DNA of 64,000 nt. Origin: Sipunculus nudus. Taxonomy: Eukaryota > Annelida > Sipuncula > Golfingiida > Sipunculidae. A program made the translations under genes and the position numbers. The notes beneath the pieces were generated by a model. It did no database searches. It was not told where the DNA came from and was given only the letters and a program-made list of their open reading frames with translations. This document shows, one piece after another, positions 35,268 through 59,129 of the stretch (positions are counted from its first letter, which is position 1; the number at the start of each line of letters is the position of its first letter). The stretch spans positions 10,937,076 through 11,001,075 of the forward strand of contig CM049309.1 in the NCBI GenBank assembly GCA_026874595.1. The letters run 5' to 3'.

Positions 35268-35462
35268 ATGGATGACGCCAGAGTATACCTGTGACCGAGC
35301 CACTGACAGTAGAAGTCCACCTTGAATATCGCCTGGCCTACAGCAAGTTCCCTGGACTTCGGGAGGAGCTCCGTGGTCTGAAGAAACCCCAACCAGCCCT
35401 GATGTTTGCTAGAAAAGAAGACGCTCTGCGTGCATGTCAAGAACAGATTTTCCAAGCTCTAG
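35268..35462 (+). pseudogene. Acidic-protein gene copy A, exon 1 (frameshifted)
   Basis: Comparison with copies C and D shows a 193-bp exon beginning ATGGATGAC. It encodes a roughly 64-residue segment with the words TEPLTVEVHLEYRL, FPGLREELRGLKKPQPALM and ARKEDALRACQEQIF, ending in a phase-1 donor CTAG/GTATAC. Copy A has two extra bases just after codon 5, giving a TGA within nine codons. The remaining frame has no in-frame ATG before it. It does keep GAG where C and D have a TAG stop. If used, this exon may act only as a 5' untranslated exon. No known domain is recognised. Confidence 0.6.
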
Positions 35463-35626
35463 GTATACATTATGCCCTCTTTAATTTATAATAATAAATA
35501 ATATTATAATAATTATATACATAATAGCTAATGAAGCAGTTAAAAATATAAACAGTTAAAAATACACGTTTTTACTAAAAATTCCTACTTTCAAATCATA
35601 TTATATTTTATTTATTTGTATTAAAG

Positions 35627-36105
35627 AGTCTCAGGACTGGGCGATGCTGTCTGATAGTGAGAGTGAGGAGGAAGACTGGCAGGAAGAATTCTTAGGTTAC
35701 TCAGAGCGACATCTGGAGGCCGACATGGACACTACTAACACGTATTTATCGACAGAGGAGCATGGGCCGGTACTTGAGATGTTGCCACCACTGTGCCCTC
35801 TGTCGGACATTGACGAAAGTGGTACCTGGGCCACTTGTATGCCTGAAACAACGGATGACAAGCACAAGTATTTTCCATGGAACGACTTCATCACAGAAAG
35901 CAATGAGGAGAGTTGTTCATTTGAAGAGTCAGAAGAGGAACTGGCCGTCAGTCGACGAGAAAAGATCCCCCATCACTCACCCAGGTCTACCATCACAGCC
36001 AGGATGTTGGTAGAGGATTTGATGTGTAACCAGGGATACAGGAATGAACATAGATGTGGACTTCGGTTCATTGACACGGATCGTGTGCAGCACACGGCTT
36101 TCTGA
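35627..36105 (+). CDS. Acidic-protein gene copy A, exon 2
   Basis: This is the main coding exon of an unrecognised small protein. The acceptor is at 'ttaaag' (35621-35626). The frame is fully open to a TGA at 36103-36105, and a methionine conserved in all four copies (35644) would give 153 residues. The N-terminal part is strongly acidic (LSDSESEEEDWQEEF), then comes YSERHLEADMDTTNTYLS, VLEMLPPL.PLSDID and a basic SRREKIPH segment, ending ARMLVEDLMCNQGYRNE and FIDTD.VQHTAF. There is no signal peptide or membrane segment, suggesting a cytosolic or nuclear protein. Indels relative to other copies are multiples of three, which suggests past selection on the frame. The function is unknown and I recognise no family. 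Confidence 0.6.
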
Positions 36106-36400
36106 AATCGTGACGACACTGGAAATATTGATCGTTTGAAGACATTACTGGTTTAAAGCAAAGGTGGACTCAGTGCCAGCTCGGTACAACACGTATTATA
36201 TATATTTATAATTTTGTTGTTATGTATATGTTCGATATATGGACTCTGTGCTTTAAATGACTTATCAATGCTTGTAACGTATCAGATATTTATTTCTCAG
36301 CATAAGTGTAATTGTAATTATTTGGTCAGTGATATTTCATCACTTGCCTTTATCATGCTTATATTGTGGCTGTTGCATGTAAAATATATTTTCCATTGTG

Positions 36401-36406
36401 AATAAA
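36401..36406 (+). terminator. Polyadenylation signal, copy A
   Basis: AATAAA about 300 bases after the stop of copy A. It is conserved at the equivalent place in copies B, C and D. Confidence 0.65.
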
Positions 36407-36739
36407 TTAGGCCTATATATTGAAATATTACTGATTTTTTTTCTGGGGGCGGAGCATTATATACCCTAAAGGAATCAATTCGAAAGTAAGCCGCGATCGA
36501 TAAGTTTGTATTTGAATTGATTTAATTCACCTTAGAATAAACAAATATTTTTATATATCGGACCAAAGGAACTATTGAGGGGACTCATAATCAAATGCTT
36601 TGTTAATATCCCTTCAAAATGTTCACATTTAAAATACTGACATTATTTATGATTTGAAAAGAACTAGTATCACATTGCTAAGCTGAAATGCTTGAAAATT
36701 GATTATAAACCTTTCAATTAAAAGCAGTTTTTCACATTT

Positions 36740-36965
36740 TCCTCACGGTCCGGAAGGATAACTTGATGAACTTATTGGCTCCAACCCTCTCACGGTTTGC
36801 GGGATCAATTGATTGGACCGAAAAATACTCTCACTGATCACTGGTGTATAATTATTGTTTGTCGCTGATTGGGAAAAAACAACATCGTTTGGTTCCCACA
36901 CCGTAAGAGCACTTAAACAAGAGGCAATCAGTCAGCACGGATTGGAAATTAATAAACCCCCCCAA
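36740..36965 (+). promoter_or_regulatory. Orphan promoter remnant, left arm
   Basis: This has the same distal ('ctcacggtttgcgggat') and proximal ('catcgtttggttcccacac', 'accgtaagagcactt') modules as the promoters of copies A, C and D, but the TATA region has decayed to 'attaataaacc' and no exon 1 follows. It is probably what remains upstream of copy B, or of a lost fifth unit. Confidence 0.55.
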
Positions 36966-37474
36966 AAATATAATTATTGCCCAATAATAACAGTTCATAC
37001 AAATCCGCCCTGGCATACTTAGAAATATATATATATATATTGCATAAGACCAGCCAGAGGAAGTATACTCCGCATTAGTTTAATGTTTTAAAATATTTGT
37101 CTGGGATAAGCATATAATGCTCCATAATCATTCAATAATTTCACAATAAGTTTATGTCTAAAACAGCGGAGTATATACCTTCATATAGTAAAGCAGCAGC
37201 GAGTCAGCAACATCGCATTTACTATAATATCGCTTAAAATAATAATTAAAATTAAAACAATGCTGCTACAACTGCTGCTATTACAACTACTACTAATGCT
37301 AAAACAACCCAGAAAGTAAACTGAAGTCCAAATGCATAAAATCCAGGAGAACGTCTTTGAAAATGTATAATTGCCGCATTCTTCGGATAAGGTCCTAGAA
37401 TCTGACACACGCTTCTGCGTTCGCTGGAATCTGCTCTGCTCTCTCTTCACTTGCCACCAATACACTATTCTTTC

Positions 37475-37898
37475 TCTTTCTATTTCTTTTCTAGTCTTTC
37501 TCTTTCTAACCTTTCATGTTCTTCCCTGTCTTCTCTCTGATTTTCTTTTTCTAATTCTAACTGTTTTAATGCAAGCTCATGTTGCATTTCCAACTTTTTC
37601 AATTCTAATTGCATAGCATTTTTAATCGCATAATTAAGAGCGTTCTGCTATCAGAACAAGACTAATTATCCCAGGAGTCACACTTTGGTGAGCTTATTCC
37701 CTGGGCCACAAAGTTTAACCATCACGTCGGACAAGCCCCCATTTTGTTACAAAGGCAAATTGTTGAGGGGAAAAATCCTGGGCCGATCCAGGAGTCGAAC
37801 CCACGTCGGTGGCGCACAAGTCCGGCGTCCCAACCGCTTCGCTAGGAAAGCAAGCTTCACTAGCGAGACAGTTCGGTCCGCTTTTATGTCAATCCGTT

Positions 37899-37905
<7 letters not shown>
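37475..37905 (-). mobile_element. LTR-retroelement fragment, left arm
   Basis: On the minus strand: an LTR starting about 37905 with A box TAGCGAAGCGGTTGG and B box GGTTCGACTCC, ending 'tttgtaaca', then a primer-binding-site-like TGGGGGCTTGTCCGACG, a leader, and the start of a coiled-coil gag reading frame (AMQLELKKLEMQHELALKQL). Part of gag, about 215 bases by comparison with 49262-49480, is deleted. The element sits in the intron region of copy B, next to a (TA)n tract. It is the inverted partner of the copy at 48861-49510. Confidence 0.75.

Positions 37906-37970
<65 letters not shown>
37904..37970 (+). repeat. (TA)n microsatellite, left arm
   Basis: About 30 TA units with one interruption, directly adjoining the retroelement LTR. 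The partner tract is at 48813-48860. Confidence 0.9.
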
Positions 37971-37971
<1 letters not shown>

Positions 37972-38132
37972 TAAATATTTATTATATCTCACTATGTAAT
38001 TAGTAATAAAATAATCCTCAAAGAGTCTGTTAATAGTTACAAATACTCGCATTTGTTGTTAAAAATCCAACTCGGTGCTTTTTAATTTTACTGTTTATTT
38101 TAATAATGGTATAGTTATATTTTATTTTTCAG

Positions 38133-38641
38133 ATTCTCAGGGCTGGGTGATGCTGACTGAAGTTGAATGTGAAGAGGAAGACTGGCAGGAAGAATTCTTA
38201 TGCTACTCGGAGCGTTATCTGGAGGCTGACATGGGCACTACAAACACGTCTCTATTGTCAGATGAGTATGCGCCGGTACTGGAGATGTTGCCACCACTGA
38301 GCCCTCTGTCGGACATTGACAAAACTAACAGAAGTGGTACCTGGGCCAGCTGTATACCTGAAACATCGGATGACAAGTACAAGTACATTCCATGGAACGA
38401 CTACAGTGTAGAAAGCTCTGATTAAAAGAGTTGTTCATTTGAAGGGTCAGAAAAAGAACTGGCCGTCAGTCGACGAGAAAAGATCCCCCATCAACAAGCC
38501 AGGTCTAGCATCGCAGCCAGGATGTTGATAGAGGATTTGATGTGTAACCAGAGATACAGGAATGAGCATAGAAGTGGACTTAGGTTCATTGACACGGATG
38601 GTGTGCAGCACAGCTTAGCACACGGCGTTCTGAAATCGTGA
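38133..38641 (+). pseudogene. Acidic-protein gene copy B, exon 2 only, nonsense
   Basis: This is homologous to exon 2 of copies A, C and D. The acceptor is 'tttttcag' and the coding sequence is that of the C-like subtype (YSERYLEADMGTTNTSLLSDE and a C-terminal SLAHGVLKS extension). A GAA codon of the other copies is TAA at 38423-38425, cutting the product at 116 codons from an upstream ATG. Reading past the stop, the frame stays open to TGA at 38639-38641. No exon 1 is present upstream: the left arm lacks the block that contains it in the right arm. A polyadenylation signal remains at 38923. I judge this a pseudogene. Confidence 0.75.
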
Positions 38642-38922
38642 CGTCATCACTGTTTGGAGACATTACTGGAAAAAAGCAAAGGTGGACTCAGTGCCAGCTC
38701 GGCACTACATGGTTCATCCTGAACGTTTTTGCGAGGATGCTTATATATTGATATATTTTCGCTGTTGTGTATATGTTTGATGTATGGACTCTGTGCTTAA
38801 TATGACTTATGAATGCTTGATGGCTTATCAGGGTTACTCATCAGTTGTTTAAGTGTTATTGTTAATAAATGGTCGGTGAAATTTCATCACTCTTATGTGG
38901 CTGTTGCTTGTATTTTATTGTA

Positions 38923-38928
38923 AATAAA
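38923..38928 (+). terminator. Polyadenylation signal, copy B
   Basis: AATAAA in the conserved 3' flank of the pseudogene copy. Confidence 0.55.
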
Positions 38929-39081
38929 TTATACGATGCAATATGTCATCCGGAAACTTTTCTCTTGGGAATGGGGCGGGGGGGGGGGGGGCTACGTACT
39001 AGAAGATGCTTAGAAGGGAATAAATGTTAAAGAAGGACTCAATAAAAAGATAGAAAAAGAAGATTGATAAAAAAATGTCAT

Positions 39082-39279
39082 TACAGAGCTGAACATGCCC
39101 TGGTGTACACAGCTGAACATGCACTGGTGTACAGAGCTGAACATGCCTTGGTGTACAGAGCTGCACATGCCCTGGTGTACAGAGCTGAACATGCCCTGGT
39201 GTACAGAGCTGAACATGCCCTGGTGTACAGTGCTGAAAATGCCCTAGTGTACAGAGCTGAACATGCCCTGGTGTACAGA
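39082..39279 (+). repeat. 24-bp minisatellite, left arm
   Basis: Just over eight units of 'acagagctgaacatgccctg' plus 'gtgt', with a few variants in fixed order. Because 24 is divisible by three and the unit lacks stops, several frames on both strands stay open, for example an eight-residue repeat HALVYRAE. The partner array at 47496-47693 has the same unit number and the same variant order. Confidence 0.9.
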
Positions 39280-39470
39280 CAGTGGCGGACCTAGCGGGGG
39301 GCGGCAGGGGCGGTGCGCCCCGGGCGGCACGTTGAGAGGGGCGGCATTATTGGGATTTCCTATAGTATTGAGATGTAGAATGACGAGTTCACCAGAAAGG
39401 TCCAAATTCATGGGTAAAAATTTGACTGTTTCATTTTTGGATTTGTGCTTTTTTTGTTGTGTTTCCTGAA
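39280..39470 (+). mobile_element. Possible hAT-type terminus, left arm
   Basis: This begins CAGTGGCGGACCTAGCGG directly after the minisatellite, followed by GC-rich 'ggcggcaggggcggtgcgcc'. CAGTGGCGG-type starts are common for hAT elements in animals. I found no opposite terminus or target duplication. The mirror copy is at about 47300-47495. Confidence 0.4.
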
Positions 39471-41094
39471 CCATTCTATCTTCATAAAACTAACGTGTCT
39501 AACGCATTATTGGACAAAACAAATGGCCGGCATAAAGTCCTTTTGCGCAGGTTTCGAAGAAAACATTAAAAGCATCTGTAGTCTTGCCATGTCAGGACGT
39601 CATCAGCATTCTAATCAATCATTTAAAGGCATGAATATCAACACCGTACACAGGCAAAAATTCCTAGGCGGCCATTAACCATGCTGGGAGAAACTAGCGA
39701 CAGCTTGTCACCCCAAACATAAATTTTAGATGAACTGAAGTTTATTTCCGAAGGCCTGAGTGTCGTGGAGTCATGGCTAGTCTTGTATATGATATGACAG
39801 AAGAAATAGGAATAGCATCAAACATTAAAAGGTTAGTATCAGGTCTAAAGTTTTGAATTTGGATAAAGCGTACAGACGGCATATGACAGATTTTGGTTCA
39901 TATAAAACTCGGGGTCTTTTAACGTAAATGAAAATTTATCAAATAAATACAAATTCGGTTTCAAATTATATAATGTGATTGTAAAGGCACTTTCAATTGC
40001 ACTTGCATTTGGTCCCTTTTTAACATTGTAAAGAGTACCCTAGTGCTGCTTAAACTATTCAAGTCAGAGAACATTATTTGAAACATATTTCTGTTTATTT
40101 TAATTTTTTTGGTGTGAATTTTGTCGGAGAAAGCACGCGGCAACTATATTTGTGATTACATTATAAATCAAACATTCCATGCAAATACCAGTTTCTTGTA
40201 CCTCTCCTTTTAAATACAAGGCAAATGCATCATTTGCATATATTAAATTGCATTTATATTTGAAACAAAGACATGCCTGTGATGGGCTTTAGTGTGATAT
40301 TTAGTGTACAAGAGCAAATGAGGAAACCGCTAGTTTTTATTCAGAATAAGAGGTCTCAATCACATTTTTCCATTAATGTTAATGTTCATATAACGGAAAA
40401 TTTGGGATCGGATGATTGTTTAATAACGTTCATATTATTGCTAATTGAAGTGCAAAAATAATGTTTAAGTTTAAACATGTTGATGCATAAATTAGAGCTT
40501 TGTATTTAGGAACAAAACGTTTTGCAATACACTCAAGATGATACCCGAAACGTATTGTTGACCCGCTTTATTTTCTGCATGTATTATTTTCTGAAATAAA
40601 ACCCTGAGAATACCTATATTGTTAATGCAGATCACATATATTATTCTTCAAATTTAATAAAAAAAAACTACAGTTAATATAAAAGGAAAATACTTTATTT
40701 TGATATATATCACAAACCTTTAAGCTTGCAAATATTAGTATAATTTCACAGTGTTCATATATTTATTTTTAAACATTTATTTATAACAGGATTACAAATG
40801 TAGTCAATCAGGCTAATATATACATGCTTTCCTGTAGACATTTATAACACAGCATTATATAAGACTATACAAGTAAAGTATATAAAGTATGTGAAGAGAG
40901 GTCAGGGTTATCCACCATCGTGACAGGTGGGGATATTTACCTCAGCTAACTTAATCCACGGCAATCCGCTCCACAGCAGGTATATAGAATTCAGATATTT
41001 TAATATGTATTGTTAGAGATCCCTATATTATACTGTGACATTTTGAAGGATTATTTTTCTGTTGTTTGCGAAAAAAAAAACCACTTACGAAAAC

Positions 41095-41220
41095 ATGTCA
41101 AGCCTGGAGCAGTTGTTAGACAAACTCAGGGATCTGGAACATAATATCAAAATGCATGTGGAACAGACAGTGTAGGTTAAACTGAATGAGTTGCATTCAA
41201 CATTAAAACAGAGATAAATA
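41095..41220 (+). pseudogene. LINE ORF1 N-terminal fragment, left arm
   Basis: This starts ATGTCAAGCCTGGAGCAG and encodes a coiled-coil-like MSSLEQLLDKLRDLEHNIK segment, then a TAG. It is the arm-duplicated end of the longer degraded ORF1 at 43170-43940. Confidence 0.5.
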
Positions 41221-41290
41221 GTATAAATTGCAGGCCGGACAGTATGAATATAGATCTTGATCAGTACAAAAGGGGAAATGAAAAGGGAAA

Positions 41291-43743
41291 GATTCTAATT
41301 CTAACTCCTCATGATCAAGGAGTTAGAATTAGAATCTTATATTTCATTGGATACCAGGAGTAAACGAGAAACAAAAAAAATAATAGATTTTCTTATCTAC
41401 AAGATAGGCATATGCCTTCTGATCTTCTTAGTATAAAACTGTGAGCAGCTTGGTTCATGAGGAGTTAGAATATGATAAAGTTTTATTTTTGTACTAGATA
41501 AAAAACGATTTGCGTGATAAAATAACATAACATTTGTCTTTTCATCCAGTGTAAATTTATGTAAATATATGTTTATCGTTTGTATCTTGCACACTGCACT
41601 TATTGTATGTTACATCATTATATCGTTACACTAGCTGATAAACCCGGTATACAAGGCTTTTTGCCGTGGTTGGGGATATGTATTGATTGAAAGGATTGTT
41701 GGGTCCCTTTTTTATTCAAGAATTAAAAGAAATATAGATTTTCAGTGGGTTGGCACGACTGTAGAATAACTCATGCACCCCTCTGAGGCACAACACTTCT
41801 GTGAACAGGAAACATTTTATGTCCAGCTGTTTTATCATAATTTTGCCACTTATTTTTATCTGCATCTTACTTCTCCATTACATGAATCCCAAACATTATA
41901 CCGTCCATATACACTTATAACCTCATCGAGACACTGCGTGAGTGATATTCCAGTCGCACCAGATATTCGTACACCAGTATGCTGACCTTGAAGACCTGGT
42001 CAGTGGTAATGTTTACATTATTTTGCGAACCGGATTGGGACGCGGGGGTACTCCGGTTTTCGATGATCTTTGACTGGTTACTATATTTTTGGACGTTTAA
42101 AGTACAGGTTTATGTGAGGAAGACATTAATTCAACACAGCTTTACTTTACTTCTTATTTAATTGGAGAAGGAAGACATGAGAGATAAATTAGATTTACGT
42201 TTTAAGGCAAGGAAACTGTTCCTGAAGAAAGAAACGGAAAAATGCATACATGTACCACCTTTGTAGCAGAAGCGGACCCAAGGGGAGTCCAGGGGGTCGG
42301 TCCCACTTTTCAGCTGCAACATTTCTTAATCGTAAGAGACCAATTTTGAGGCCTGGAACGTTCGCCTTAACCCCAACTCAAACCTTTTCGGAAAATGGGG
42401 ACCTTATTTTGTCATTAATCCTCCTGGGTTGAACCCCTCCTTTTCGCAAAGCGAGCAAGAGTCATGTGTTTTTCACACTGACTGACCACACACGTGGGTA
42501 AGAGCCTTTGTCAAATTTTAGCCATAAATCCGTCACTGAAAGCAAGATTATTCATATGCACGGAAGCCCTTAAATCGGATTAATTCTGGGCTTGATGTGA
42601 CGACAAAGAAAATCCGGTCTTTGCCGAAGGCAGTTCGGCTGTTTTCGGTGATTGCTTCCGCTTATATCAGAAAAAAACGCAAATATAAAAAAAAATTGTG
42701 TGCACATTAAAATTATTTATTCTAATATCGGCCATGTAACTGGGGGAATATTAACCATCAAAATGAGGTATAGCACAGTATCATACGCAACGCGGTTTCT
42801 GCGAACGTTGCGACCACAGGTAGACCGAATTCCTTCCTTAAGTATTAGATTAAGATTATTCATTGATTTCTTTGTAACTGTATTGCATTTGTCTTGTTTA
42901 ATTTACATGAATCTGTTTCATTTTTGTGAAGATTATGAATTAACATGGAATTACAACTTTAATTTCATCATATTATATCTTCACAAAGATCACAGCATTA
43001 TAACCCAAAACTCTTGTAGTTCAAAATAGTATGAAAAAAGAAGTTATACCTTGAATTTAAAAATTTAATTATATTAAATATTTATATTTGTACACTTATT
43101 ATTTCAAACAAGCAGAAGATGCAAAAATTTACAAGAGATCAAAATACAAAGAGCAAGATAGTTATCTTTATTTACAGTTTCTGAGGTCTTTTTCTCGAGT
43201 AAAAGATATTTTGTGGCCATTTTTTAATATAACAATTATAGTGCCGTCAAAAGACCAGCGTCAACTTGAGAATGTGACTTTGCTTTGTTCAGCCATTCCA
43301 ACCTAATTTATGTCAGGTCCTCTACAATAGTAATTCAAGAATCTTTCAGCAGTTTTCTCGCCTTAATGACCTGGTCATTGTATCTCCAGCTTATGAATTT
43401 TACAAGCACTGCCCTAGAAATTGCTACCTCCTTGTTTATCTGACCGGTGAACTCTCCCAATCATCAAGCTTTCTACAGGAACCCCTATTTTTAAATACAT
43501 TTACTGCTTCCAGATTACGATTTTGCCCAGTCTCTGTCAGACCAAATATGTACGACGCCCATACTATTCATGGTCATCTATTTTACTTTTTCCATTCATC
43601 TATCTCTCTTTCTAAACTTGCGTTTGTTTCCCTCATCTTTGTCTCATATCTTTTTAATATATCTCTAAGGTGTGATACCTGCTCATTATGTTCTTTCTCT
43701 ATAAAGCATATACTTTCATTGCACTTTATTAATAAAGTTAGCA
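41291..43743. other. Central spacer of the palindrome
   Basis: These are 2.45 kb of non-repeated DNA between the arms. A small perfect hairpin, 'gattctaattctaactcct' paired with its inverse, sits right at the left junction (41292-41335). The piece 42260-42460 is GC-richer and looks like an unrelated repeat remnant. The right part is a degraded LINE ORF1 (listed separately). I see no intact gene in the spacer. Confidence 0.75.
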
Positions 43744-43940
43744 TTTCCCTTTTCATTTCCCCTTTTGTACTGATCAAGATCTATATTCATACTGTCCGGC
43801 CTGCAATTTATACTATTTATCTCTGTTTTAATGTTGAATGCAACTCATTCAGTTTAACCTACACTGTCTGTTCAACATGCATCTTGATATTATGTTCCAG
43901 ATCCCTGAGTTTTTCAAACAACTGCTCCAGGCTTGACATG
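43170..43940 (-). pseudogene. Degraded LINE ORF1-like sequence at palindrome centre
   Basis: Read on the minus strand, it starts MSSLEQL with a coiled-coil segment. An open stretch (43583-43777) continues the coiled coil (SHLRDILKRYETKMRETNASL). Further on comes a segment like the RNA-binding domain of LINE ORF1 proteins (VLVKFISWRYNDQVIKARK, then VEDLT, then, after a frameshift, WSFDGTIIVILKNG). Several stops and at least one frameshift make it non-functional. The ORF1-type assignment rests on the order of these motifs only. No reverse transcriptase is nearby. Confidence 0.5.
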
Positions 43941-44704
43941 TTTTCGTAAGTGTTTTTTTTTCGCAAACAACAGAAAAATAATCCTTCAAAATGTCACAGT
44001 ATAATCTAGGGATCTCTAACAATACATATTAAAATATCTGAATTCTATATACCTGCTGTGGAGCGGATTGCCGTGGATTAAGTTAGCTGAGGTAAATATC
44101 CCCACCTGTCACGATGGTGGATAACCCTGACCTCTCTTCACATACTTTATATACTTTACTTGTATAGTCTTATATAATGCTGTGTTATAAATGTCTACAG
44201 GAAAGCATGTATATATTAGCCTGATTGACTACATTTGTAATCCTGTTATAAATAAATGTTTAAAAATAAATATATGAACACTGTGAAATTATACTAATAT
44301 TTGCAAGCTTAAAATTTTGTGATATATATCAAAATAAAGTATTTTCCATTTATATTAACTGTAGTTTTTTTTATCTAATTTGAAGAATAATATATGTGAT
44401 CTGCATTAACAATATAGGTATCCTCAGGGTTTTATTTCAGAAAATAATACATGCAGAAAATAAAGCGGGTCAACAATACGTTTCGGGTATCATCTTGAGT
44501 GTATTGCAAAACGTTTTGTTCCTAAATACAAAGCTCTAATTTATGCATCAACATGTTTAAACTTAAACATTATTTTTGCACTTCAATTAGCAATAATATG
44601 AACGTTATTAAACAATCATCCGATCCCAAATTTTCCGTTATATGAACATTAACATTAATGGAAAAATGTGATTGAGACCTCTTATTCTGAATAAAAACTA
44701 GCGG

Positions 44705-46372: not shown

Positions 46373-46379
46373 CATATTT

Positions 46380-47495: not shown

Positions 47496-47693
47496 TCTGT
47501 ACACCAGGGCATGTTCAGCTCTGTACACCAGGGCATTTTCAGCACTGTACACCAGGGCATGTTCAGCTCTGTACACCAGGGCATGTTCAGCTCTGTACAC
47601 CAGGGCATGTGCAGCTCTGTACACCAAGGCATGTTCAGCTCTGTACACCAGTGCATGTTCAGCTGTGTACACCAGGGCATGTTCAGCTCTGTA
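47496..47693 (-). repeat. 24-bp minisatellite, right arm
   Basis: This is the inverted partner of 39082-39279, with the same translated repeat and the same variant positions. Long frames across it (47096-47680 minus, 47289-47765 plus) are by-products of the repeat. Confidence 0.9.
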
Positions 47694-48135: not shown

Positions 48136-48647
48136 TCACGATTTCAGAACGCCGTGTGCTAAGCTGTGCTGCACACCATCCGTGTCAATGAACCTATATC
48201 CACTTCTATGCTCATTCCTGTATCTCTGGTCACACATCAAATCCTCTATCAACATCCTGGCTGCGATGCTAGACCTGGCTTGTTGATGGGGGATCTTTTC
48301 TCGTCGACTGACGGCCAGTAGTTCTTTTCCTGACCCTTCAAATGAACAACCCTTTTCATCAGAGCTTTCTACACTGTAGTCGTTCCATGGAATGTACTTG
48401 TACTTGTCATCCGATGTTTCCGGTATACAGCTGGCCCAAGTACCACTTCTGTTAGTTTTGTCAATGTCCGACAGAGGGCTCAGTGGTGGCAACATCTCCA
48501 GTACCGGCGCATACTCATCTGACAATAGAGACGTGTTTGTAGTGCCCATGTCAGCCTCCAGATAACGCTCTGAGTAGCATGAGAATTCTTCCTGCCAGTC
48601 TTCCTCTTCAAATTCACCTTCAACCAGCATCACCCAGTCCTGAGAAT
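48136..48647 (-). CDS. Acidic-protein gene copy C, exon 2
   Basis: This is the exon 2 homologue with acceptor 'tatttttcag'. The frame is open throughout to TGA at 48136-48138. Starting at the conserved methionine (48630) it encodes 164 residues. It has the acidic EEEDWQEEF block, YSERYLEADMGTTNTSLLSDE, then VLEMLPPLSPLSDIDKTNR, a basic SRREKIPHQQAR segment, and a C-terminus lengthened to SLAHGVLKS as in copy B. It is the best preserved of the B/C subtype. The upstream exon 1 at 50827-51019 carries an in-frame TAG, so translation would have to start in this exon. The function is unknown. Confidence 0.6.
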
Positions 48648-48808
48648 CTGAAAAATATAATATAACTATACCATTATTAAAATAAACAATAAAATTAAAA
48701 AGCACCGAGTTGGATTTTTAACAACAAATGCGAGTATTTGTAAATATTAACAGACTCTTTGAGGATTATTTTATTACTAATTACATAGTGAGATATAATA
48801 AATATTTA

Positions 48809-48812
<4 letters not shown>

Positions 48813-48860
<48 letters not shown>
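48813..48860 (+). repeat. (TA)n microsatellite, right arm
   Basis: About 24 TA units next to the retroelement LTR. It is the partner of 37904-37970. Confidence 0.9.
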
Positions 48861-48865
<5 letters not shown>

Positions 48866-49510
48866 CGGGTTGACATAAAAGCGGACCGAACTGTATCGCT
48901 ATTTAAGCTTGCTTTTCTAGCGAAGCGGTTGGGACGCCGGACTTGTGCGCCACCGACATGGGTTCGACTCCTGGATCGGCACAGGATTTTTCCCCTCAAC
49001 AATTTGCCTTCGTAACAAAATGGGGGCTTGTCCGACGTGACGGTTAAACTTTGTGGCCCAGGGAATAAGCTCACCAAAGTTTGCCTCCTGGGATAATTAG
49101 TCTTGTTCTGATAGCAGAACGCTCTTAATTATGCGATTCAAAATGCTATGCAAGTAGATTTGAAAAAGTTGGAAATGCAACATGAGCTAGCATTAAAACA
49201 GTTAGAATTAGAAAAAGAAAACCAGAGAGAAGAGAGGGAAGAACATGAAAGGTTAGAAAGAGAAAGACTAGAAAAAGAAAAAGAAATTGAGTTAAAACGA
49301 CTGGAGTTAGAAAGACTTAAAGTAGAACATTGTCTAAGTGCTGCCCCAACTCACAGTTTTGATGTTACTAAACACATTAGACTTGTCCTACCTTTTCAAG
49401 AAAAAGAGGTTGAGAAATATTCTTACACATTTAGAAGGTAGCTGAAAATTTAAAATGGCCTATGGAAAATTGGACTATGCTGTTACAAAGTGTATTGACT
49501 GGCAAGGGAA
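48861..49510 (+). mobile_element. Short-LTR retroelement: LTR with tRNA-like boxes, PBS, broken gag
   Basis: The LTR is about 157 bp (48861-49017, starting near 'taacgggttgaca' and ending 'cgtaaca'). It contains an A box TAGCGAAGCGGTTGG at 48918-48932 and a B box GGTTCGACTCC at 48961-48971. Three bases later comes TGGGGGCTTGTCCGACG (49021-49037), which resembles the primer-binding site seen in many retroelements. After a leader, a gag-type frame starts near 49149 with a charged coiled coil (EREEHERLERERLEKEKEI). It then has the gag-like motif KHIRLVLPFQEKEVEKY, a one-base frameshift near 49440, and in another frame WPMENWTMLLQSVLTGK. The element is truncated, with no pol and no 3' LTR. It lies in the copy C intron. 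Confidence 0.75.
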
Positions 49511-49989
49511 GAGAGAGAGAGCAGATTCCAGCGGACGCAGAATCGTGTGTCAGATTCTAGGACCTTATCCGAAGAATGCGGCAATTATACATTTTCAAAG
49601 ACTTTCTCCTGGATTTTATGCATTTGGACTTCAGTTTACTTCTTGGATGTTACAAGAACTTTCCACTGGACTGTCATTCTCCGAAAGTTTACATTTAAGG
49701 ACTTATCGTTGTGATGGTGTTGGAATCCAGATACTGTGCACATACATTATTTTCTCTGTGATTGTATTGACTTGTTTTACTGCATAATTGTATTGATTTA
49801 GTGTATTGTATTGTTAGGGTTGTTTTTAGAAAAAATTATAATTACTTGTTAACAAAAAACCACACACTTCTTTATTCATTCCCCTAGACATTTCACGCTG
49901 CCTAGTGTTACAGAATCTGATTTGTTTTTATCTCGATTGCAAAATTTGTGTTCATCACGCATGCGTGATCTGTTTATATTAGGTTCCGT

Positions 49990-49992
<3 letters not shown>

Positions 49993-50053
<61 letters not shown>
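49993..50053 (+). repeat. (TA)n microsatellite in copy C intron
   Basis: About 30 TA units. Confidence 0.9.
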
Positions 50054-50056
<3 letters not shown>

Positions 50057-50150
50057 CTCCACTTGCAATGTTATTTTATAAATCACTAGCCTTCTATGTT
50101 TCGAAATTAAAATCAAACAATATTATCTTTTGACATTATCGGTCTTTTTA

Positions 50151-50735
50151 GGGTGCCTTTCCATACATGCGGATTTTCACCCGCGCGGGACCCGCGCGGG
50201 TCCCCGCATGCGAAGAGTCCCTTTCCATATGTGCGGTTTCCCGCATGCGGGTGACCCATTAGTTTGGATAAACGCATGCACCAATAATCATAATTTCTAA
50301 AATTTTAGTGTAATATCTTAAGAAAATATTCAGTGTAAACATTTATACTAACTGATGAGGCAGATTGGAGCGGATTAATATCGTATCTCACCAGCCAGGC
50401 TTAAATGGTGGCTATTTCCTGTCACACTCTAACTAGAGCTGGTCCCGGGCTGTATCTCAATTAAGAATGGTCGTATATTTTTTAATGCAATTAAATAAGC
50501 TCTATCAGCTCCTTTTTCTTTTCAAATACAAGGACACATGCCTGCTACTGATATATACATGTAGCATCCGCATGCGGGCCCCCGCAGAAATCCAACACTG
50601 CTGCATCCGCATGCGGGACCCGCGCGGATGCCCGCACGTATGGAAAGGCGAAAGTGATAACACACTTGTTGGATTTCAACCGTGCGGGACCCGCGCGGGT
50701 CCCGCGCGGGGGCCCGCATGTATGGAAAGGCACCC
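50151..50735. mobile_element. Harbinger-like MITE with TTA target duplication
   Basis: A 585-bp element starting GGGTGCCTTTCCATACATGC and ending with the inverse GCATGTATGGAAAGGCACCC, flanked by TTA on both sides (50148-50150 and 50736-50738). Inside are many GC-rich words such as 'cccgcgcgggacccgcgcgg' and 'ccgcatgcggg', giving strong local hairpins. TIRs starting GGG with TWA target duplications indicate PIF/Harbinger. It lies in the copy C intron and is absent from the left arm. Confidence 0.85.
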
Positions 50736-50826
50736 TTATGGATATACCTCGAGTAAATAGCCTTTGCATCAGATTAACAACATTGATAATTATAATATTA
50801 TAAATTTTAGAGTGTATAATATATAC

Positions 50827-51019
50827 CTAGAGCTTGGAAAATCCGTTCTTGACATGCACGCAGAGCGTCTTCTTTTCTAGCAAACATCAGGGCTGGTTGG
50901 GGTTTCTTCAGACCACGAAGCTCCTACCGAAGTCCAGGGAACTTGCTGTAGTCCAGACGATATTCCAGGTGGACTTCAACTGTTAGTGGCTCGGTCACAG
51001 GTACTAAGACGTCATCCAT
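50827..51019 (-). pseudogene. Acidic-protein gene copy C, exon 1 (in-frame TAG)
   Basis: This is a 193-bp exon with ATG at 51017-51019 and a phase-1 donor CTAG/GTATAT, matching the exon 1 of A and D. The frame reads MDDVLVPVTEPLTVEVHL and EYRLDYSKFPGLR, then TAG where copy A has GAG, then is open again through ELRGLKKPQPALMFARKED to the donor. Copy D has the same TAG. Either both are null, or the exon is used as an untranslated leader, or the stop is read through. A TATA promoter (51223-51230) precedes it. The intron to exon 2 is about 2.2 kb and holds the MITE and the retroelement. Confidence 0.65.
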
Positions 51020-51220
51020 TGTTTTCTGTGGGTTTTTTCTTTCTTCTTCTAGTGCCGCTATATTCCTTCCCGTGATGTAATGTAAAGTAGACCGTTGTAC
51101 TGGTACGAAATACTGCTGTATCTTGTGGTTATAATCTGTTTACTCTGACGGTCTGGCTTTGGAGACAAGTTGCACTCCAGGAAACTCTGGTCTGTAATGA
51201 ATGGACAATAGACCTCTGGA

Positions 51221-51337
51221 GGTTTATATATGTTTAATCCGCGCCAACCGCTTGTGTATTGTTTTAGTGCTTTACGGTACAGTAACCAAACGCTGTTGTT
51301 TGATCTTGTTAAGAGTGGTAGAGTTTTGTCAATGATC
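51221..51337 (-). promoter_or_regulatory. Promoter of gene copy C (proximal part)
   Basis: Minus-strand TATATAAA (51223-51230) is preceded by the shared proximal module ('gcgtttggttactgtaccgt', 'aaagcactaaaac'). The distal module of this promoter ('cacggtttgcgggatggtg' on the minus strand) lies 4 kb away at about 55425-55500, because a long-TIR element is inserted between them. Confidence 0.65.
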
Positions 51338-53566
51338 AGTCCCCGGGATACATCGATTTAATTGCAAAATTTATCGTTAATCTTAGGTTTATTTTCCATT
51401 GTAGTATACTTTAGGACATTAGAAAATGGCAGTCTTAAGTTGCACAAACGGTAGTTCTGCCCTGCAGCTCAAAAAAGCCAACCCCTCCCCCTATATCGGT
51501 AATTTTCAACAATCATGTTATGCAACCTTCGGATCACAATATTTCTGGAATGTCTTCGCAGATTTGGATGATCTTTGTTATTGTTTGTATGTTTTCAAGC
51601 ATGGCCGACATGATAAGCATGATTTCATGGCCAAATTTAGGTCAAAATCAAGGTAAAACCATGGTAATGAAAGATTTTGATGAAATCCTGCTATATAGCA
51701 AAGAGGACTTATGTCAATTTAAATAATTTACATTTGGAAATGGAGTGACTTGGCCTGATGCTACAAAGTATACACCATTTTGTCAGTTTTATCTTGTAAA
51801 TTGTATCTCATGAGTATTTATTCAGTTTCAGTTCGTTTAGAATATAAGACATACAAATTTCACATAATTTAAAGGGGGCCCATTCACCTATAAAGCATGT
51901 CGTATTAACACGAAAAAGAGCTTCTTTCCTTTAAAAAAATTTGAACTTCCCAAAAATATTTTCCTGAAATTTTTTGCTTTATGATGTAAATTATTATTAA
52001 TAACAGTGGACCAGGCGCGATCATAAGTGTCAACATAACACATTGCTCGGGACTCAACCACAACACCTGTCATGCGGTGCCATGACTGATTTGGCCCCGA
52101 AAATGTAATACATGCTCCCGCCGGCTGACACATTGCGTGTTGAGGCTCACAATCGGACCTGCGGTCACGCGGCCTTGTTATGGTAAATAGACGCATGTAG
52201 ACTGTGTTCATAAACACACAGAGTCATAAAAAGGTGTCAAACAGCCTTGTTTGAAGTGCTGGGATGGATTTGCTGGGAAACATTTGCATAAAGCAAAACT
52301 GAACCGGGAGTTTGAGATAATACGCATTATATTGCTCTGATAATGTCCGTTTAAATAAGGTTCATACGTAACTGGATATACGGCTTTAATTTATGTTTAA
52401 CATATGTTAATTTATGTTCTACACACCGGACATAGCAAGAGTCTTTGGACAATTATTAACATTGTAGACATAATGAGAACTTGTCTGAGCTCTGATTTGT
52501 TCAATCACATTTGAATAATTTTATTTGTTAATACATGTATAGAAAAAAATGAACATTTATCCAAGCTGTAAAACTAATACATATGTAAACAATACCTCAA
52601 GGATTAGAACACCCAATAAGTTGTACCAGGAACAAACTGGAGATGAGGAAATAAAGGGATCTTTACTATAAATTTTGATTAGTATCATGTGACATTTTAT
52701 AGCCATGACTCTTGATATCATAAGTCAAACATAATGACAACTGTTATGAGTATTAACCTGGGTAAGATTTTAATATTTTTACATATTTTATTTTTTTTTT
52801 AATTTTGCAAATTATATAAATTAACAAACTGAAACACCGGGGAAATACCTGTAAATTTAGATTAATTTTTATATAATCAACTGCAGCCTTGTCTATCATT
52901 GGTTTGCTTTATATCATCCCTTAAAGTGTAAATCAATTTTATTCAATTTTTGTATCATTATTAAGTTTGAAATGAAAAATACCCAAAGGTGACTACATGG
53001 TGTCTTATGAAATGCACTTAGGGCCATTTATACAAGTTCCATACAACATAAGTAATTGCTAGGTTATTCCCTGTTCCTCATAAACTATTAATTCCCTTTT
53101 CCATTTATTTTTTTAATTTTTATTATAAACAAATAAAAAAATCATAATTGTTTATTGATATGTTGTTGACCTTAACAACTACTAGAGGAAGTGGGTTGGG
53201 CACCTTGGCCAGAAGGGGGGATAAGCACCTGGGCCAGATGTGGCCTGCAAAGAGCGAGATAGCTGTCCAGTATTACCCGCTTGAAGCGTGTATAATTAGC
53301 CTGGGGGTCAACAAGGGTGACTTGCAGGCGACTGAATAGGGCCGGTAAAAATATTCAAAGGTTTTTACTGTTCTTATGTAAGGAAATCCTCATCTTATAA
53401 ACATCTACAATTAAGTGGCAATTCATCTTTTTTTGGACATAATTAAATATTCACTTTAATCATTTTAACACCTTTTGATACAATTCATAATCAAAAGTAG
53501 CAAAAGTCTTGAACAAGAATGAATCAAATATAGAAAATTACAATATTCATCTAGTTGACAAATCCT

Positions 53567-53587
53567 GGGGGGGGGGGGGGGGGGGGG
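53567..53587 (+). repeat. Poly-G run
   Basis: Twenty-one guanines inside the 4-kb long-TIR element. Confidence 0.9.
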
Positions 53588-54261
53588 AGGTGTAGGGCAG
53601 AGTGGAAGCCCATCCAAGTTGAGCTAGGGCATATTCCTGGATCGGGTTACATAACACAGGGATGTATTACTCAATGTACTGGGGGAGGTTGATTAAAAAA
53701 CAGTTGACATGTATGTGTAAATTGAAAAAATATACATACTTTTCTTTATCAATTCTTTGACATTCTAATCAATTCCTTTGATATTTCATATATTAAAAGA
53801 TTCAATCTTCATGTGTATATGCTGTAGAAATGAAATCAACAGTGTTAAAGGGAAAAAAATGTGCCGTTGTCGAAATTGGGCAAAATTTAAGATAATGATT
53901 AAAAATTAATGCTAATAACCTACATAAATTAAAATTTTTTATCTAATTTCTTGTATACAATTAAAAAAAATTGAATATTGATTTGTGCTTGAAATAAGCT
54001 CATTAGCTTAAATAATTATCACGTTAAAGGGGCCCAATCACCTATCTGACCTTCATAAACTAAACGTAATCCCTTAGAGCTTTCAGATATTTAGGCCAAA
54101 AACGTGGATATCACCGCTCATAGGCTGCTTGTTTTGTTTATATCAACGTCTTTATAATATGTGTCGGCCCGCAAAAACATTCAAAACGAATTTAACAAGG
54201 GCATCTGGCAGCAAGTCAGATAAGCCAGAGCTTTGCAAATGGCGTTTTGCAAGTGACTTTT

Positions 54262-54700
54262 CTAATCCGAATATATGCAACCTATACCGCCTAAGATTAG
54301 TCTGTCTTCTTCATAATTATCAATATCGCACATGTCATCATCCTCTGTTTCATCTTCCGCATGAAACAGGTAATCCGGGCCTTGCTCTCCATCAAACAAT
54401 TTAGGGATGAAATTTCCTCCTTCATCCAACCATGTTTCAGGGGTCCCAGTCATTTATAAGAGCCTTGTGCGCATTTGCCGAGATATGGTTGAGAAGTTGG
54501 GCTCTGGAGATTTTCTGCTCAAGGACATAGAGGCAGCAGGGAAGGTTGGCGGGGTCAAAGGAACTGAGCTTAAACAGAGTTTGCTTTGCTTTTCTCTGCA
54601 AAATCTTGTTGGGAAGAAGTGTGTGCCAGACACGGTTCATATCCTGGCACTTACTCCTTATCCCAAAAAGGGCGCAAAAGTACTTGTTGACTCTCTTCAA
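54262..54700 (-). pseudogene. Frameshifted coding remnant inside the long-TIR element
   Basis: Two overlapping minus-strand frames join at about 54440 into one coding-looking stretch. The upstream frame has LPCCLYVLEQKISRAQLL and NHISANAHKALINDW. The downstream frame continues TWLDEGGNFIPKLFDGEQ and an acidic tail (EDETEDDDMCDIDNYEED). The arrangement resembles the C-terminal part of proteins encoded by animal mobile elements, but I cannot name the family. It may be what is left of the element's own protein. Confidence 0.45.
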
Positions 54701-55417
54701 ACTGAAGCTGATACTGTTTCAGAAGCCCGAAAATAAGAAGAATTAATTTATATTTTGAAACTGGTTTCGAATATTTAAAGTGTACATATATTCCGTAAGT
54801 AAATTAAAGAATTACCTCATAATTAATCAGATAAGTTTACTCTAACTCGTCTGTTTACTAAACGGATCAACCTAACCCTATTTGTTTCGTGTAACTGATG
54901 ACCCTGACCTTGAAATAAGTTACTACGCTTTGAGAAATACTTTATCGGAACCTCAATAAATCAATCTTCTACAGATTCCACTAGACCTGTGAGTTTATGT
55001 CAAAATAATAACATATATAAATATTTCGAGCAAAAATAGGATATAATCTGCTTTAAGTGCTTCAAAGTGACCTTGACTTTTGTCCTTAATTGTGACCCCA
55101 AATGCATGGCCGTGAAATCATGCTTATCATGTTGGCCTTGCTTGAAAACATACAACTAGATACCAAGATTATCCAAATCTGCGAAGTCATTCCAGAAATA
55201 TTGTGATCCGAAGGTTGCATGGCATGATTGTGGCAAATCACCGATATAGGGGGAGGGGTTGGCTTTTTTTTTAGCTGCAGGGCAGAACTACCGTCTATGC
55301 AACTTAAGACTGCCATATTCTAATGTCCCAAAGTATACTTCAACGGAAAATACACCTAAGATTAACGATAAAATTTTGCAATTAAATCGATGTATCCCGG
55401 GGACTACATAGACCTTA

Positions 55418-55500
55418 AATTTTTTACGGTCCAAACAACTCACCATCCCGCAAACCGTGACCAAGTCTGCATGGGGAAGTAAATTAACTGCTTTTACTGG
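55418..55500 (-). promoter_or_regulatory. Displaced distal promoter module of copy C
   Basis: This contains 'tttttacggtccaaacaact' and 'caccatcccgcaaaccgtga', matching the distal module at about 59480-59560 (copy D) and 34834-34915 (copy A). It is separated from the copy C TATA box by the inserted 4-kb element. Confidence 0.5.
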
Positions 55501-56034
55501 AACAACGATAAAGATGCAAACATGCGACAATTTGATTAAAGTGATTGTTAATTGATTGTTGAGAACTTCAACTGAGCAGTCAAAAGAATACCACCTCCCC
55601 GTGAACCCGGAACTGAATGGCAATAAAGTCAATAATTCTAAGTGGTAATATTTGTTATTATGACAATTATGATTATTATGATTATTATTATCAGTTGAAA
55701 TAGTAGCATAAGTAGTAGTTGTAATAGCAGCTGTTGTAGCAACATTGTTTTTATTTTAATTATTATTTTAAGCGCTATTATAGTAAATGCGATGTTGTTA
55801 TCTCACTGCTGCTTTATTATATGAAGGTATATACTTCGCTGTTTTAGACATAAATTTAATGTGAAATTATTGAATGATTACGGAGCTTTATTATGCTTAT
55901 CCTAGACAAATATTTTAAAACATTAAAATAATGCGGAGTATACTTCCTCTGGCTGGTCTTATATATATATATGCCAGGGCGGATTTGTTTGAACTGTTAT
56001 TAATAGGCAATAATTTTTATTTTTGGGGGGGTTT

Positions 56035-56255
56035 ATTAATTTCTAATCCGTGTAGACTGATTGCCCCTTGCTTAAGTGCTTTTACGGTGAGGGGACAAAA
56101 CGATGTTGTTTTTTTTTCCCCAATCAGCGACAAACAATAATTATACACGGGTGATCAGTGAGAGTATTTTACGGTCCAATCAATTGACCAACCCGCAAAC
56201 CGTGAGAGGGTTGGCACCTATAAGTACATCAAGTTATCATACCGGACCGTGAGGA
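56035..56255 (-). promoter_or_regulatory. Orphan promoter remnant, right arm
   Basis: This is the inverted partner of 36740-36965, with the same distal and proximal modules. The TATA position reads 'ttattaatttctaatccg' on the plus strand and no exon 1 follows on the minus strand. Confidence 0.55.
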
Positions 56256-56392
56256 AAATGTGAAAAACTGCTTTTAATTGAAAGGTTTATAATCAATTGT
56301 CAAGCATTTCAGCTTAGCAATGTGATACTAGTTATGTTCAAATCATAAATAATGTCAGTATTTTAAATGTGAACATTTTGAAGGGATATTAA

Positions 56393-57522
56393 TGTCACAC
56401 GGTACTCCGTGTGGTTCCAGGTTGTTTAAATATGATAGAGCATTTTGATGTAAATTAAATCTGACTGCGGAAGGACACCCTGGTGCAAGTACACTCACGC
56501 CTAAAAAGTGAAACAACACCTTTTAACAGAAACAATATAATTAAAAGAAAAGATATGGCAAACGTTATACTCACACTATCAGAGCAAAGTAAATACCATC
56601 ACAGCTCTGGAGTAATTCCTATTATCTCACAGGAACAACTCGGGACACATAAAAGAGTCATATGACACACGTAAACACAAAGTTCTCCTCTGGGTGACGA
56701 CACAGACGCTGCATTAACAACACAACACACGAACAAGGAAGGTCTTTACGGCGCCCGCGAATCCAGTATCGCTCCAGTGAATATATTCAATACGCCGATA
56801 GGCCGATAGGCCGATCTGTCCGGCCTATGGCACGTGCACAGGCGTACGGCTCCAATCTGCCAAACGATTAGCAGTCAGGCTTCCGCCCCGCGTGGTCGAT
56901 CCCGTAAACCACCCTACCTTCAGGACTCGGTGGCCCTGATACAAACAGTCTTACACAATCCATAGATTTCAGGTCCTGACAGCATGAGTATTCCCTCGTG
57001 GAATATCACTGACCTGTTGCCGGCCCGGTACGTAGGATCCGGCCCTCCACTGAGACATCTGAACGCGTGGACAATAGTCTATTTTCCCGACGACTAAAAG
57101 CAGTTAATGGGCAACTTACACCCGCAACGAAGTCTGCACAAAGGTTTCTGTCGGCTAACACTTGTCGACTGCCAGTACTTTCCCAGTACGCGACTCTGAG
57201 GAGACTTCGTCCCGCTACCTCGTCATGACATCAACAGCACCTCCGTACACACGCAGTTTTTAACAGATATCCCCTCGTTCCGCCCCTTTTGGGGTCTTAT
57301 ATAGTGATGCACCCGGTCAACCCCTGGCCTAGCCAATCGGCGCCAAGCTTACCCTCCAAACTACATTCCCGCCATTCCTAAACCCGGCGCACACCCGCCT
57401 ACGACATACAAAAGAACCTGAATTAAACCTGTTCTCTAAAATCGGCTTGTCACCGCTCTCTGGTGACATCACTAACCCAATTAAAAGAAAGTACACCGCA
57501 TTGTCACCGTTCCCTGGTGATA
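56393..57522. mobile_element. Solo LTR with ATTAA target duplication
   Basis: A 1130-bp insertion that is absent at the matching site in the left arm (about 36578-36615). It is flanked by a 5-bp direct repeat ATTAA (56388-56392 and 57523-57527). It starts TGTCACACGG and ends with CCCTGGTGATA, so the termini TGTCAC/GTGATA are imperfect inverted repeats as in LTRs. A TATA-like 'cttatatagtgatgc' lies at about 57297. There is no coding sequence. It is much more GC-rich than its surroundings. Confidence 0.8.
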
Positions 57523-57722
57523 ATTAACAAAGCATTTGATAATGCGTCCCCTCAATAGTTCCTTTGGTCCGATATATAAAAATATTTGTTCATTCTAAGG
57601 TGAATTAAATCAATTCAAACACAAACTTATTGATCGCTTCTTATTTTCGAATTGATTCCTTTAGGGTATATAGTGCTCCGCCCCCAGAAAAAAATCAGTA
57701 ATATTTCAATATATGGGCCTAA

Positions 57723-57728
57723 TTTATT
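57723..57728 (-). terminator. Polyadenylation signal, copy D
   Basis: AATAAA on the minus strand about 300 bases after the copy D stop, matching 36401-36406 in copy A. Confidence 0.65.
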
Positions 57729-58026
57729 CACAATTGAAAATATATTTTACATGTAACAGCCACAATATAAGCATGATAAAGGCAAGTGATGAAATATCAC
57801 TGACCAAATATTTACAATTACACTTTTGTTGAGAAAAAAATATCTGATACGTTATCAAGCATTAATAAATCATACAAAGCACAGAGTCAATAAATCGAAC
57901 ATAACAACATAACAACAAAATTATATAAATATATAATACGTGTTGTGCCGAGCTGGCACTGAGTCCACCTTTGCTTTACACCAGTAATGTCTTCAAACGA
58001 TCATTATTTCCAGTGTCGTCACGATT

Positions 58027-58520
58027 TCAGAAAGCCGTGTGCTGCACACCATCCGTGTCAATGAACCGAAGTCCACATCTATGTTCATTCCTGTATCCCT
58101 GGTTACACATAAAATCCTCTACCAACATCCTGGCTGCGATGCTAGACCTGGCTTGTTGATGGGGGATCTTTTCTCGTCGACTGACGGCCAGTAGTTCTTT
58201 TCCTGACCCTTCAAATGAACAACCCTTTTCATCAGAGCTTTCTACACTGTAGTCGTTCCATGGAATGTACTTGTACTTGTCATCCGATGTTTCCGGTATA
58301 CAGCTGGCCCAAGTACCACTTCTGTTAGTTTTGTCAATGTCCGACAGAGGGCTCAGTGGTGGCAACATCTCAAGTACCGGCGCATGCTCCTCTGTCGATA
58401 AATACGTGTTAGTAGTGTCCATGTCAGCCTCCAGATGTCGCTCTGAGTAGTCTAAGAATTCTTCCTGCCAGTCTTCCTCCTCACTCTCACTATCAGACAG
58501 CATCGCCCAGTCCTGAGAAT
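58027..58520 (-). CDS. Acidic-protein gene copy D, exon 2
   Basis: This is the exon 2 homologue with acceptor 'gtatcacag'. The frame is open to TGA at 58027-58029, giving 158 residues from the conserved methionine at 58503. Its N-terminal part (LSDSESEEEDWQEEF, YSERHLEADMDTTNTYLST) and C-terminus (GLRFIDTDGVQHTAF) are of the A subtype. The middle (VLEMLPPLSPLSDIDKTNR to QQARSSIAARML) is of the C subtype, and 58123-58371 is identical base for base to 48250-48498. This mosaic is explained by gene conversion from copy C. It is the palindrome partner of copy A. The product has no recognised domain. Confidence 0.6.
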
Positions 58521-58936
58521 CTGTGATACAAATAAATAAAATATAATATGATTTGTAAGTAGGAAATTTTTAGAGTATGACATTTTTAGTAAAAACTTGT
58601 ATTTTAACTGCTTATATATTTTAACCGCTCCTTTCGCTTTAATGTATATAATTATTATGATATTAAATTAGAGAAATAGTCTTTACATGTATAAACATTC
58701 TTTATGTATGTTTATATATAAGGTTGTATCAATGTTCCGGTAAATTTATATTATGACTGACTTCCAATGTATTTTTCGAAATTAAAATCATAAAATATTA
58801 TTTTTCATATTATGTTGTATGTTAATTCCATTAGTAAACCTTGGTATCAGCATAAACATAATGTTCAATAAGTACATTGAGATATGAGATATATCCTCAA
58901 TAAAAATATAAATGTAAAAAATTGTAATTTTATTAC

Positions 58937-59129
58937 CCAGAACTTGAAAAATCTGTTCTTGACATGCACGCAGAGCGTCTTCTTTTCTAGCAAACATCAG
59001 GGCTGGTTGGGGTTTCTTCAGACCACGGAGCTCCTACCGAAGTCCAGGGAAATTGCTGTAGTCCAGACGATATTCCAGGTGGACTTCAACTGTTAGTGGC
59101 TCGGTCACAGGTAGTCTGGCGTCATCCAT
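58937..59129 (-). pseudogene. Acidic-protein gene copy D, exon 1 (in-frame TAG)
   Basis: A 193-bp exon with ATG at 59127-59129 and donor CTGG/GTAATA. The frame reads MDDARLPVTEPLTVEV and HLEYRLDYSNFPGLR, then TAG at the same codon as in copy C, then is open to the donor. The intron to exon 2 is about 415 bases. The upstream TATA box is at 59333-59340. Apart from the stop the exon is intact, so it may be an untranslated leader or a recently lost coding exon. Confidence 0.65.

Follow-up and report, generated by a model that had tools for sequence, protein, structure and literature searches.

Four copies of a two-exon gene in a Sipunculus nudus palindrome are very probably unprocessed pseudogenes of a small acidic protein family

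Four damaged gene copies and their intact relatives

We analyzed a 64,000-nucleotide stretch of the Sipunculus nudus genome (contig CM049309.1, here C4, positions C4:10937076-11001075; hereafter the window), which carries four copies, A, B, C, and D, of a two-exon gene for a small acidic protein. Comparison with relatives in the same genome indicates that all four are very probably unprocessed pseudogenes that most likely do nothing now. Their family evolves by birth and death and encodes small acidic proteins with a possible regulatory role. The copies are homologous to the intact genes E, F, G, and H, each carries at least one disabling lesion, and A, C, and D have kept the intron and promoter. 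Coordinates are window positions unless prefixed, and own-genome searches covered the 1.43-Gb assembly of 153 contigs.

Copies A and B lie on the forward strand. Copy A consists of exon 1 (35268-35462), exon 2 (35627-36105), and an AATAAA at 36401-36406; its exon 1 contains a 2-bp insertion and meets a stop 8 codons after the first ATG, and its exon 2 is an open frame. Copy B consists of exon 2 (38133-38641), interrupted by one internal TAA, without the proximal promoter and exon 1. Copies C and D lie on the reverse strand. Exon 1 of C (50827-51019) contains a TAG at codon 32, and its exon 2 (48136-48647) is open, with a C-terminus altered after a 10-bp indel. Exon 1 of D (58937-59129) contains the TAG of C at the same codon 32, at the end of a C-like tract, and its exon 2 (58027-58520) is open and C-like in its middle part. 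Exon 1 is 193 nucleotides (nt) long (195 nt in A) and exon 2 is 479-512 nt. A GT-AG phase-1 intron and an upstream TATATAAA box were found in A, C, and D, and a downstream AATAAA in all four copies. No intact product can be read from the first ATG in A, B, C, or D.

An initial annotation of the window had assigned the two-exon structure, phase-1 intron, TATA box, and polyadenylation signal to all four copies. This holds for A, C, and D, but B has only the AATAAA and has lost exon 1 and the proximal promoter. We confirmed the listed lesions (the 2-bp insertion in A, the TAG in exon 1 of C and D, and in B the missing exon 1 and the TAA in exon 2) as well as the open exon 2 of A, C, and D. The lesions are real, but they are not four separate events and do not differ in every copy as had been stated, since C and D have one in common at the end of the C-like tract of D. 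Nor are the exon 2 indels all multiples of three, because B and C carry the 10-bp indel near the exon 2 end, which gives them a different C-terminus; the other seven copies end in HTAF.

A genome search with copy C gave 51 matches, and a search with exon 2 of H (E-value up to 1, 10 candidates scored) gave nine loci, namely A-D, E, F, G, H, and I. Copy E (C4:10901218-10900303), 36 kb left of the window, is intact and encodes 219 amino acids (aa). Copies F, G, H, and I lie at C4:65.77-65.80 Mb; F (219 aa), G (219 aa), and H (214 aa) are intact, and in I, which is broken, the third codon of exon 2 is TAA. Four of the nine two-exon genes (E, F, G, and H) are thus intact and five (A-D and I) are broken, with the splice sites of the intact copies placed by hand. 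The intact product has 214-219 aa and a calculated isoelectric point (pI) of 4.4-4.5. F and G have an identical predicted protein, and their loci are 99.7% identical across 7.0 kb. Alignment of all genomic copies, a check proposed in the initial annotation, compared nine copies, four of them intact two-exon genes. The suggestion that a functional parent lies elsewhere and that the window copies are dying relics is borne out by E-H as intact two-exon genes and by constraint on exon 2 at 65.8 Mb, which is not detectable in the window cluster.

Selection on exon 1 and exon 2

Selection was measured by Nei-Gojobori counts, written here as synonymous : non-synonymous, and by the ratio of non-synonymous to synonymous change (dN/dS). 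For exon 1 compared between clusters, dN/dS was 0.11-0.18 in pairs with F and H and 0.18-0.20 in pairs with I, which indicates that exon 1 is conserved coding sequence and not a leader. For exon 2 at 65.8 Mb, dN/dS was 0.16 for F-H, 0.16 for F-I, and 0.09 for H-I, with counts of 14:9, 17:11, and 17:6, respectively, each far from neutral. In the window cluster, the exon 2 ratio was 0.63-0.84 for A-B, A-C, A-D, A-E, B-E, C-D, C-E, and D-E, 1.01 for B-C, and 0.52 for B-D. The corresponding counts were 3:11 for B-C, 9:29 for A-D, 13:41 for A-E, 14:41 for C-E, and 2:7 for changes private to E, none distinguishable from neutral. The disjoint branches B-C, A-D, and E-private together gave 14:47 against 17:6 for H-I (Fisher p = 3e-5), and B-C plus A-D gave 12:40 against 14:9 for F-H (p = 0.003). 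These counts show strong purifying selection on exon 2 at 65.8 Mb, and the changes in the window cluster look neutral.

Mosaic structure of copy D

At sites where A and C differ, D alternates between A-like and C-like blocks. In the exon 2 piece, D formed 32 runs; shuffled sites gave 78 on average, and none of 20,000 shuffles went as low. This piece contains one C-like tract of 30 sites. The exon 1 piece showed 18 runs against 27 after shuffling (p = 0.0026), with a C-like tract of 6 sites, the last of which is the changed base of the TAG. The runs test dropped sites at which D matched neither A nor C (by hand count, 15 in the exon 2 piece and 6 in the exon 1 piece). Another C-like stretch of 10 sites lies in the badly aligned intron end of D and was not relied on. 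Within the exon 2 tract, D shows the state of C at 8 of the 8 columns that differ between B and C (five substitutions and one 3-nt indel), so that C rather than B is the likely conversion partner. For the TAG that closes the C-like tract in exon 1 of D, the simplest explanation is gene conversion between C and D, and we infer the direction C to D because D is mostly A-like outside the tracts.

Several observations count against neutral decay and conversion in the window. Exon 1 of A-D still appears constrained (6:4, p = 0.02; other exon 1 pairs gave 5:5, p = 0.13, for A-C and 3:7, p = 0.72, for C-D). A, C, and D still have an open exon 2, and the private exon 2 changes of the intact E look as neutral as those of the pseudogenes. 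Gene conversion lowers synonymous divergence and disturbs the counts, so that the ratios are rough, and the pairs share branches. The conversion-like tract in exon 1 comprises 6 sites only.

Palindrome and order of duplications

The four copies lie in a large, imperfect palindrome delimited by collinear inverted BLAST blocks. The left arm occupies 11056-41290 (forward), followed by an unpaired loop of 2453 bp without inverted partner (41291-43743) and the right arm (reverse), of which 43744-64000 falls within the window and which extends past it to ~112679 (C4:11049754). The arms are made up of 18 collinear inverted blocks, 85.6-98.6% identical (mean 91.9%) and 27.6 kb in sum with slight overlap; minisatellite matches were excluded from the block list by hand, and flanking DNA beyond the window was included. 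A and D form one arm pair and B and C the other, as two tandem genes multiplied by an inverted duplication. A tree built from the 300 nt that follow the stop supported (A,D) at 100/99 and (B,C) at 100/100. With exon 2, (B,C) was recovered at 100/99 and no A-D pair appeared, as expected if D is mosaic. The 3' flanks differ by 27% between the tandem copies A and C, and by 6% (A-D) and 1% (B-C) between arms. Tandem divergence exceeds arm divergence, which argues that the tandem duplication preceded the palindrome. The 100 nt 5' of exon 2, which differ by 32% between A and D, speak against this pattern; D has a 17-nt insertion there, which the gap-free comparison counts as mismatches.

The left-arm junction at 37301-37303 (forward) pairs at 37301 with 55704 and at 37303 with 49651. 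The right-arm stretch between them (49651-55704), which contains the promoter and exon 1 of C, is absent from the left arm. Since B retains exon 2, a left-arm deletion of ~6 kb likely removed its promoter and exon 1. A Galpha-q gene adjoins the copies, with exon 1 at 29461-29580 (reverse), exon 2 at 10799-10596, and six more matches left of the window; together the matches span residues 7-359 of human GNAQ. The right-arm counterpart of Galpha-q exon 1 is split by an insertion.

From these arrangements, the starting point would have been a tandem pair of two-exon, TATA-driven genes. An inverted segmental duplication with its outer end in Galpha-q intron 1 would then have produced the palindrome with two genes per arm. 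In the later decay, A would have gained its 2-bp insertion, B would have lost promoter and exon 1 and gained a stop, and C would have gained the TAG that passed to D. E, 36 kb to the left, and F, G, and H, at C4:65.8 Mb, have stayed intact. Retention of intron, promoter, and polyadenylation signal (A, C, and D), several disabling changes, intact paralogues, and a relaxed exon 2 are likewise features of unprocessed pseudogenes in birth-and-death families. Unlike usual unprocessed pseudogenes, the window copies lie in a palindrome, and two of them have a stop in common at the end of a conversion-like tract. Gene conversion between palindromic duplicates is known from the human Y palindromes and the Drosophila hsp70 pairs, which resemble the window in their inverted arms and conversion-like tracts. 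In contrast to these systems, the window tracts connect C and D, two copies in direct orientation on one arm, and the allele concerned is broken; the arms are ~92% identical on average. Gene death itself is ordinary; this case illustrates how a broken allele may come to be common to paralogues in a palindrome.

An assembly artefact, in which the arms are two haplotypes of one locus misjoined head to head, would reduce the four copies to two genes with allelic lesions. An identity of 86-99% with large insertions could suit alleles of a highly polymorphic species, with A-D and B-C as allele pairs. However, the 168.5 kb examined contain no N, and the flanks beyond 11056 and 112679 cease to match each other there. 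The right arm has Galpha-q exon 1 without exon 2, where an allele should continue, and the genome search listed two places for Galpha-q exon 1. Read-level fold-back artefacts would moreover be expected to give near-identical arms. We consider such a misjoin improbable.

Could the damaged copies still encode a product?

From Met45 of exon 1 onward, A, C, and D have an uninterrupted frame that continues through exon 2, and the first frame of A has 8 codons only, short enough for reinitiation. A truncated product from Met45, or one from exon 2 alone, could thus be the real protein, with the first short frame as a leader or upstream open reading frame. Several features make this very unlikely. In the intact E, F, G, and H, the reading frame starts at the first ATG, which has A at -3 and G at +4. 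The context of Met45 is weak (CTGATGT in five copies), the residue is isoleucine in I, and a truncated product would be without the conserved motif of exon 1. A product of exon 2 alone was rejected on two grounds, the constraint on exon 1 and the variability of the exon 2 methionine, which the initial annotation had described as conserved but which is replaced by valine in H and I. The idea that exon 2 alone is used, with exon 1 as leader, further conflicts with the occurrence of the exon 1 motif in other arrays (see below). Readthrough or regulation of the TAG in C and D, with full-length protein still made, is hardly credible: the downstream frame and splice sites are intact in both, but the 6 other copies that have exon 1 encode glutamate here (E, F, G, H, and I, and A when read in its post-insertion frame), the TAG is followed by G where C is favoured for readthrough, and C additionally has an altered C-terminus.

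Promoter module

The unprocessed pseudogenes A, C, and D retain a promoter module. That of A (34947-35066, forward), with TATATAAA at 35055-35062, matches the 128-bp promoter of the intact H at 80%; those of C (51221-51301, reverse) and D (59330-59446, reverse) were located by alignment and by search with the H promoter. Ten places in the genome matched the H promoter, and each belongs to a copy of this gene: A, C, D, E, F, G, H, and I, together with two further modules lying ~1.7 and 2.4 kb 5' of the H and I ATGs. This search listed no module for B; a diverged one remains at 36865-36958, 1.2 kb upstream of B exon 2. Alignment of seven copies revealed the block around CGTTTGGTCACTGTACCGTAA as the best-conserved part, followed by the TATA box. 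Expression may be inducible, as TATA-type promoters and tandem arrays suggest.

Diverged extra modules were observed at 36865-36958 and 56030-56114, one per arm, with no recognisable exon directly downstream. A second upstream module is present also in E, H, and I. These extra modules may act as a distal element, or they may be left over from another copy of the gene.

Exon 1 motif and predicted function

Exon 1 encodes a motif of 40 residues, V-x-x-P-L-x-x-x-V-x-x-x-Y-x-x-D-Y-x-K-F-P-G-L-x-x-E-x-x-G-x-x-x-P-Q-P, of which 17 are invariant across nine aligned examples. Open frames that match exon 1 from codon 6 to codon ~44 occur in arrays at C5:39.5-39.7, C10:57.6, and C4:58.0 Mb. A motif search gave 60 matches, 52 in those arrays and 8 in two-exon copies; the 52 array matches correspond, by our grouping, to ~38 loci, several with internal stops. 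These one-frame relatives resemble the window copies in the exon 1 motif and in forming arrays that mix open and stop-bearing members. Unlike the two-exon copies, they have a longer N-terminus, a shorter C-terminus, and, at the loci inspected, motif and C-terminus in one frame, where introns are still conceivable. Some frames contain repeated motifs, three copies in L017 and two each in L018, L019, and L021. A W-x-x-C/R-I/L-P stretch recurs in the C-terminal parts of five aligned proteins, a weaker hint at common descent of these parts.

Promoter similarity between two-exon copies and one-frame relatives was not consistent. In 20 comparisons (four copies with five relatives), 2 gave p = 0.015 against shuffles and the other 18 gave p of at least 0.065, and a common promoter is not claimed.

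Profile searches gave no match in Pfam (4 and 5 proteins), NCBIfam (2 proteins), or PHROGs (three window exon 2 proteins). Searches of the PDB gave none or chance-level matches at E-values of 0.41 and 0.25. Only the Pfam and PDB negatives weigh much, because NCBIfam and PHROGs cover prokaryotes and their viruses. A viral origin found no relative in three scans of viral contigs and was set aside. A CREB KID-like transactivation domain, prompted by the stretch RREKIPHRRSS, gave neither a Pfam hit nor a BLASTP alignment to a KID fragment, and was likewise rejected. Among the titles and abstract openings covered by a literature search, the family was not named. Structure predictions were of low confidence, with a mean predicted local distance difference test score of 58.8 for A exon 1 and 41.4 for D exon 2, too poor for a fold search; these single-sequence models point weakly to disorder.

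We tentatively propose that the exon 1 motif marks an undescribed protein family of small inducible regulators, in five clusters on three contigs (nine two-exon copies and ~38 loci), and that the window array is being dismantled by the palindrome and stop-spreading gene conversion. A more doubtful guess at function is suggested by the pI of 4.4-4.5, acidic stretches in which W, F, and L are interspersed, the lack of a recognised domain, and a compact conserved motif that some relatives repeat. The intact product might be an intracellular regulatory adaptor or coactivator, with a binding motif in exon 1, an acidic, W/F/L-bearing activation or recruitment segment in exon 2, and a dedicated promoter module. 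Composition and motif repetition are its grounds, and the low confidence of both structure predictions tells against it. The motif occurs at dozens of loci of one genome without a Pfam or credible PDB match, and one cluster is clearly under purifying selection. The family would therefore be of more interest than the gene death itself, as a specific target for expression and binding studies.

Other features of the window and relatives

A 5.6-kb insertion at 65307-70894 (C4:11002382-11007969; L026/L036/L027) splits the right-arm Galpha-q exon 1 after ~8 codons. Its ends read GGGTGTATCTAAA...TTTAGATACACCC, with a likely 9-bp target duplication, and on these grounds it is probably a DNA transposon. 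A 24-bp minisatellite (CTGTACACCAGGGCATGTTCAG-like) is present in both arms (39082-39297 and 47496-47693), and large tandem-repeat arrays in opposite orientations occupy 71518-78198 and 82447-85351 of the right arm outside the window. By eye, the intron of C contains at 50151-50735 an element resembling a miniature inverted-repeat transposable element, with 22-bp inverted ends (GGGTGCCTTTCCATACATGCGG / CCGCATGTATGGAAAGGCACCC) and CG-rich internal repeats. Sequence resembling a tRNA-derived short interspersed element and a coiled-coil gag was likewise seen by eye at 48860-49440 (C intron) and 37303-37900 (5' of B exon 2). Among the one-frame relatives, positions 2557-3207 of L017 form a single open frame in which the exon 1 motif occurs three times in tandem.

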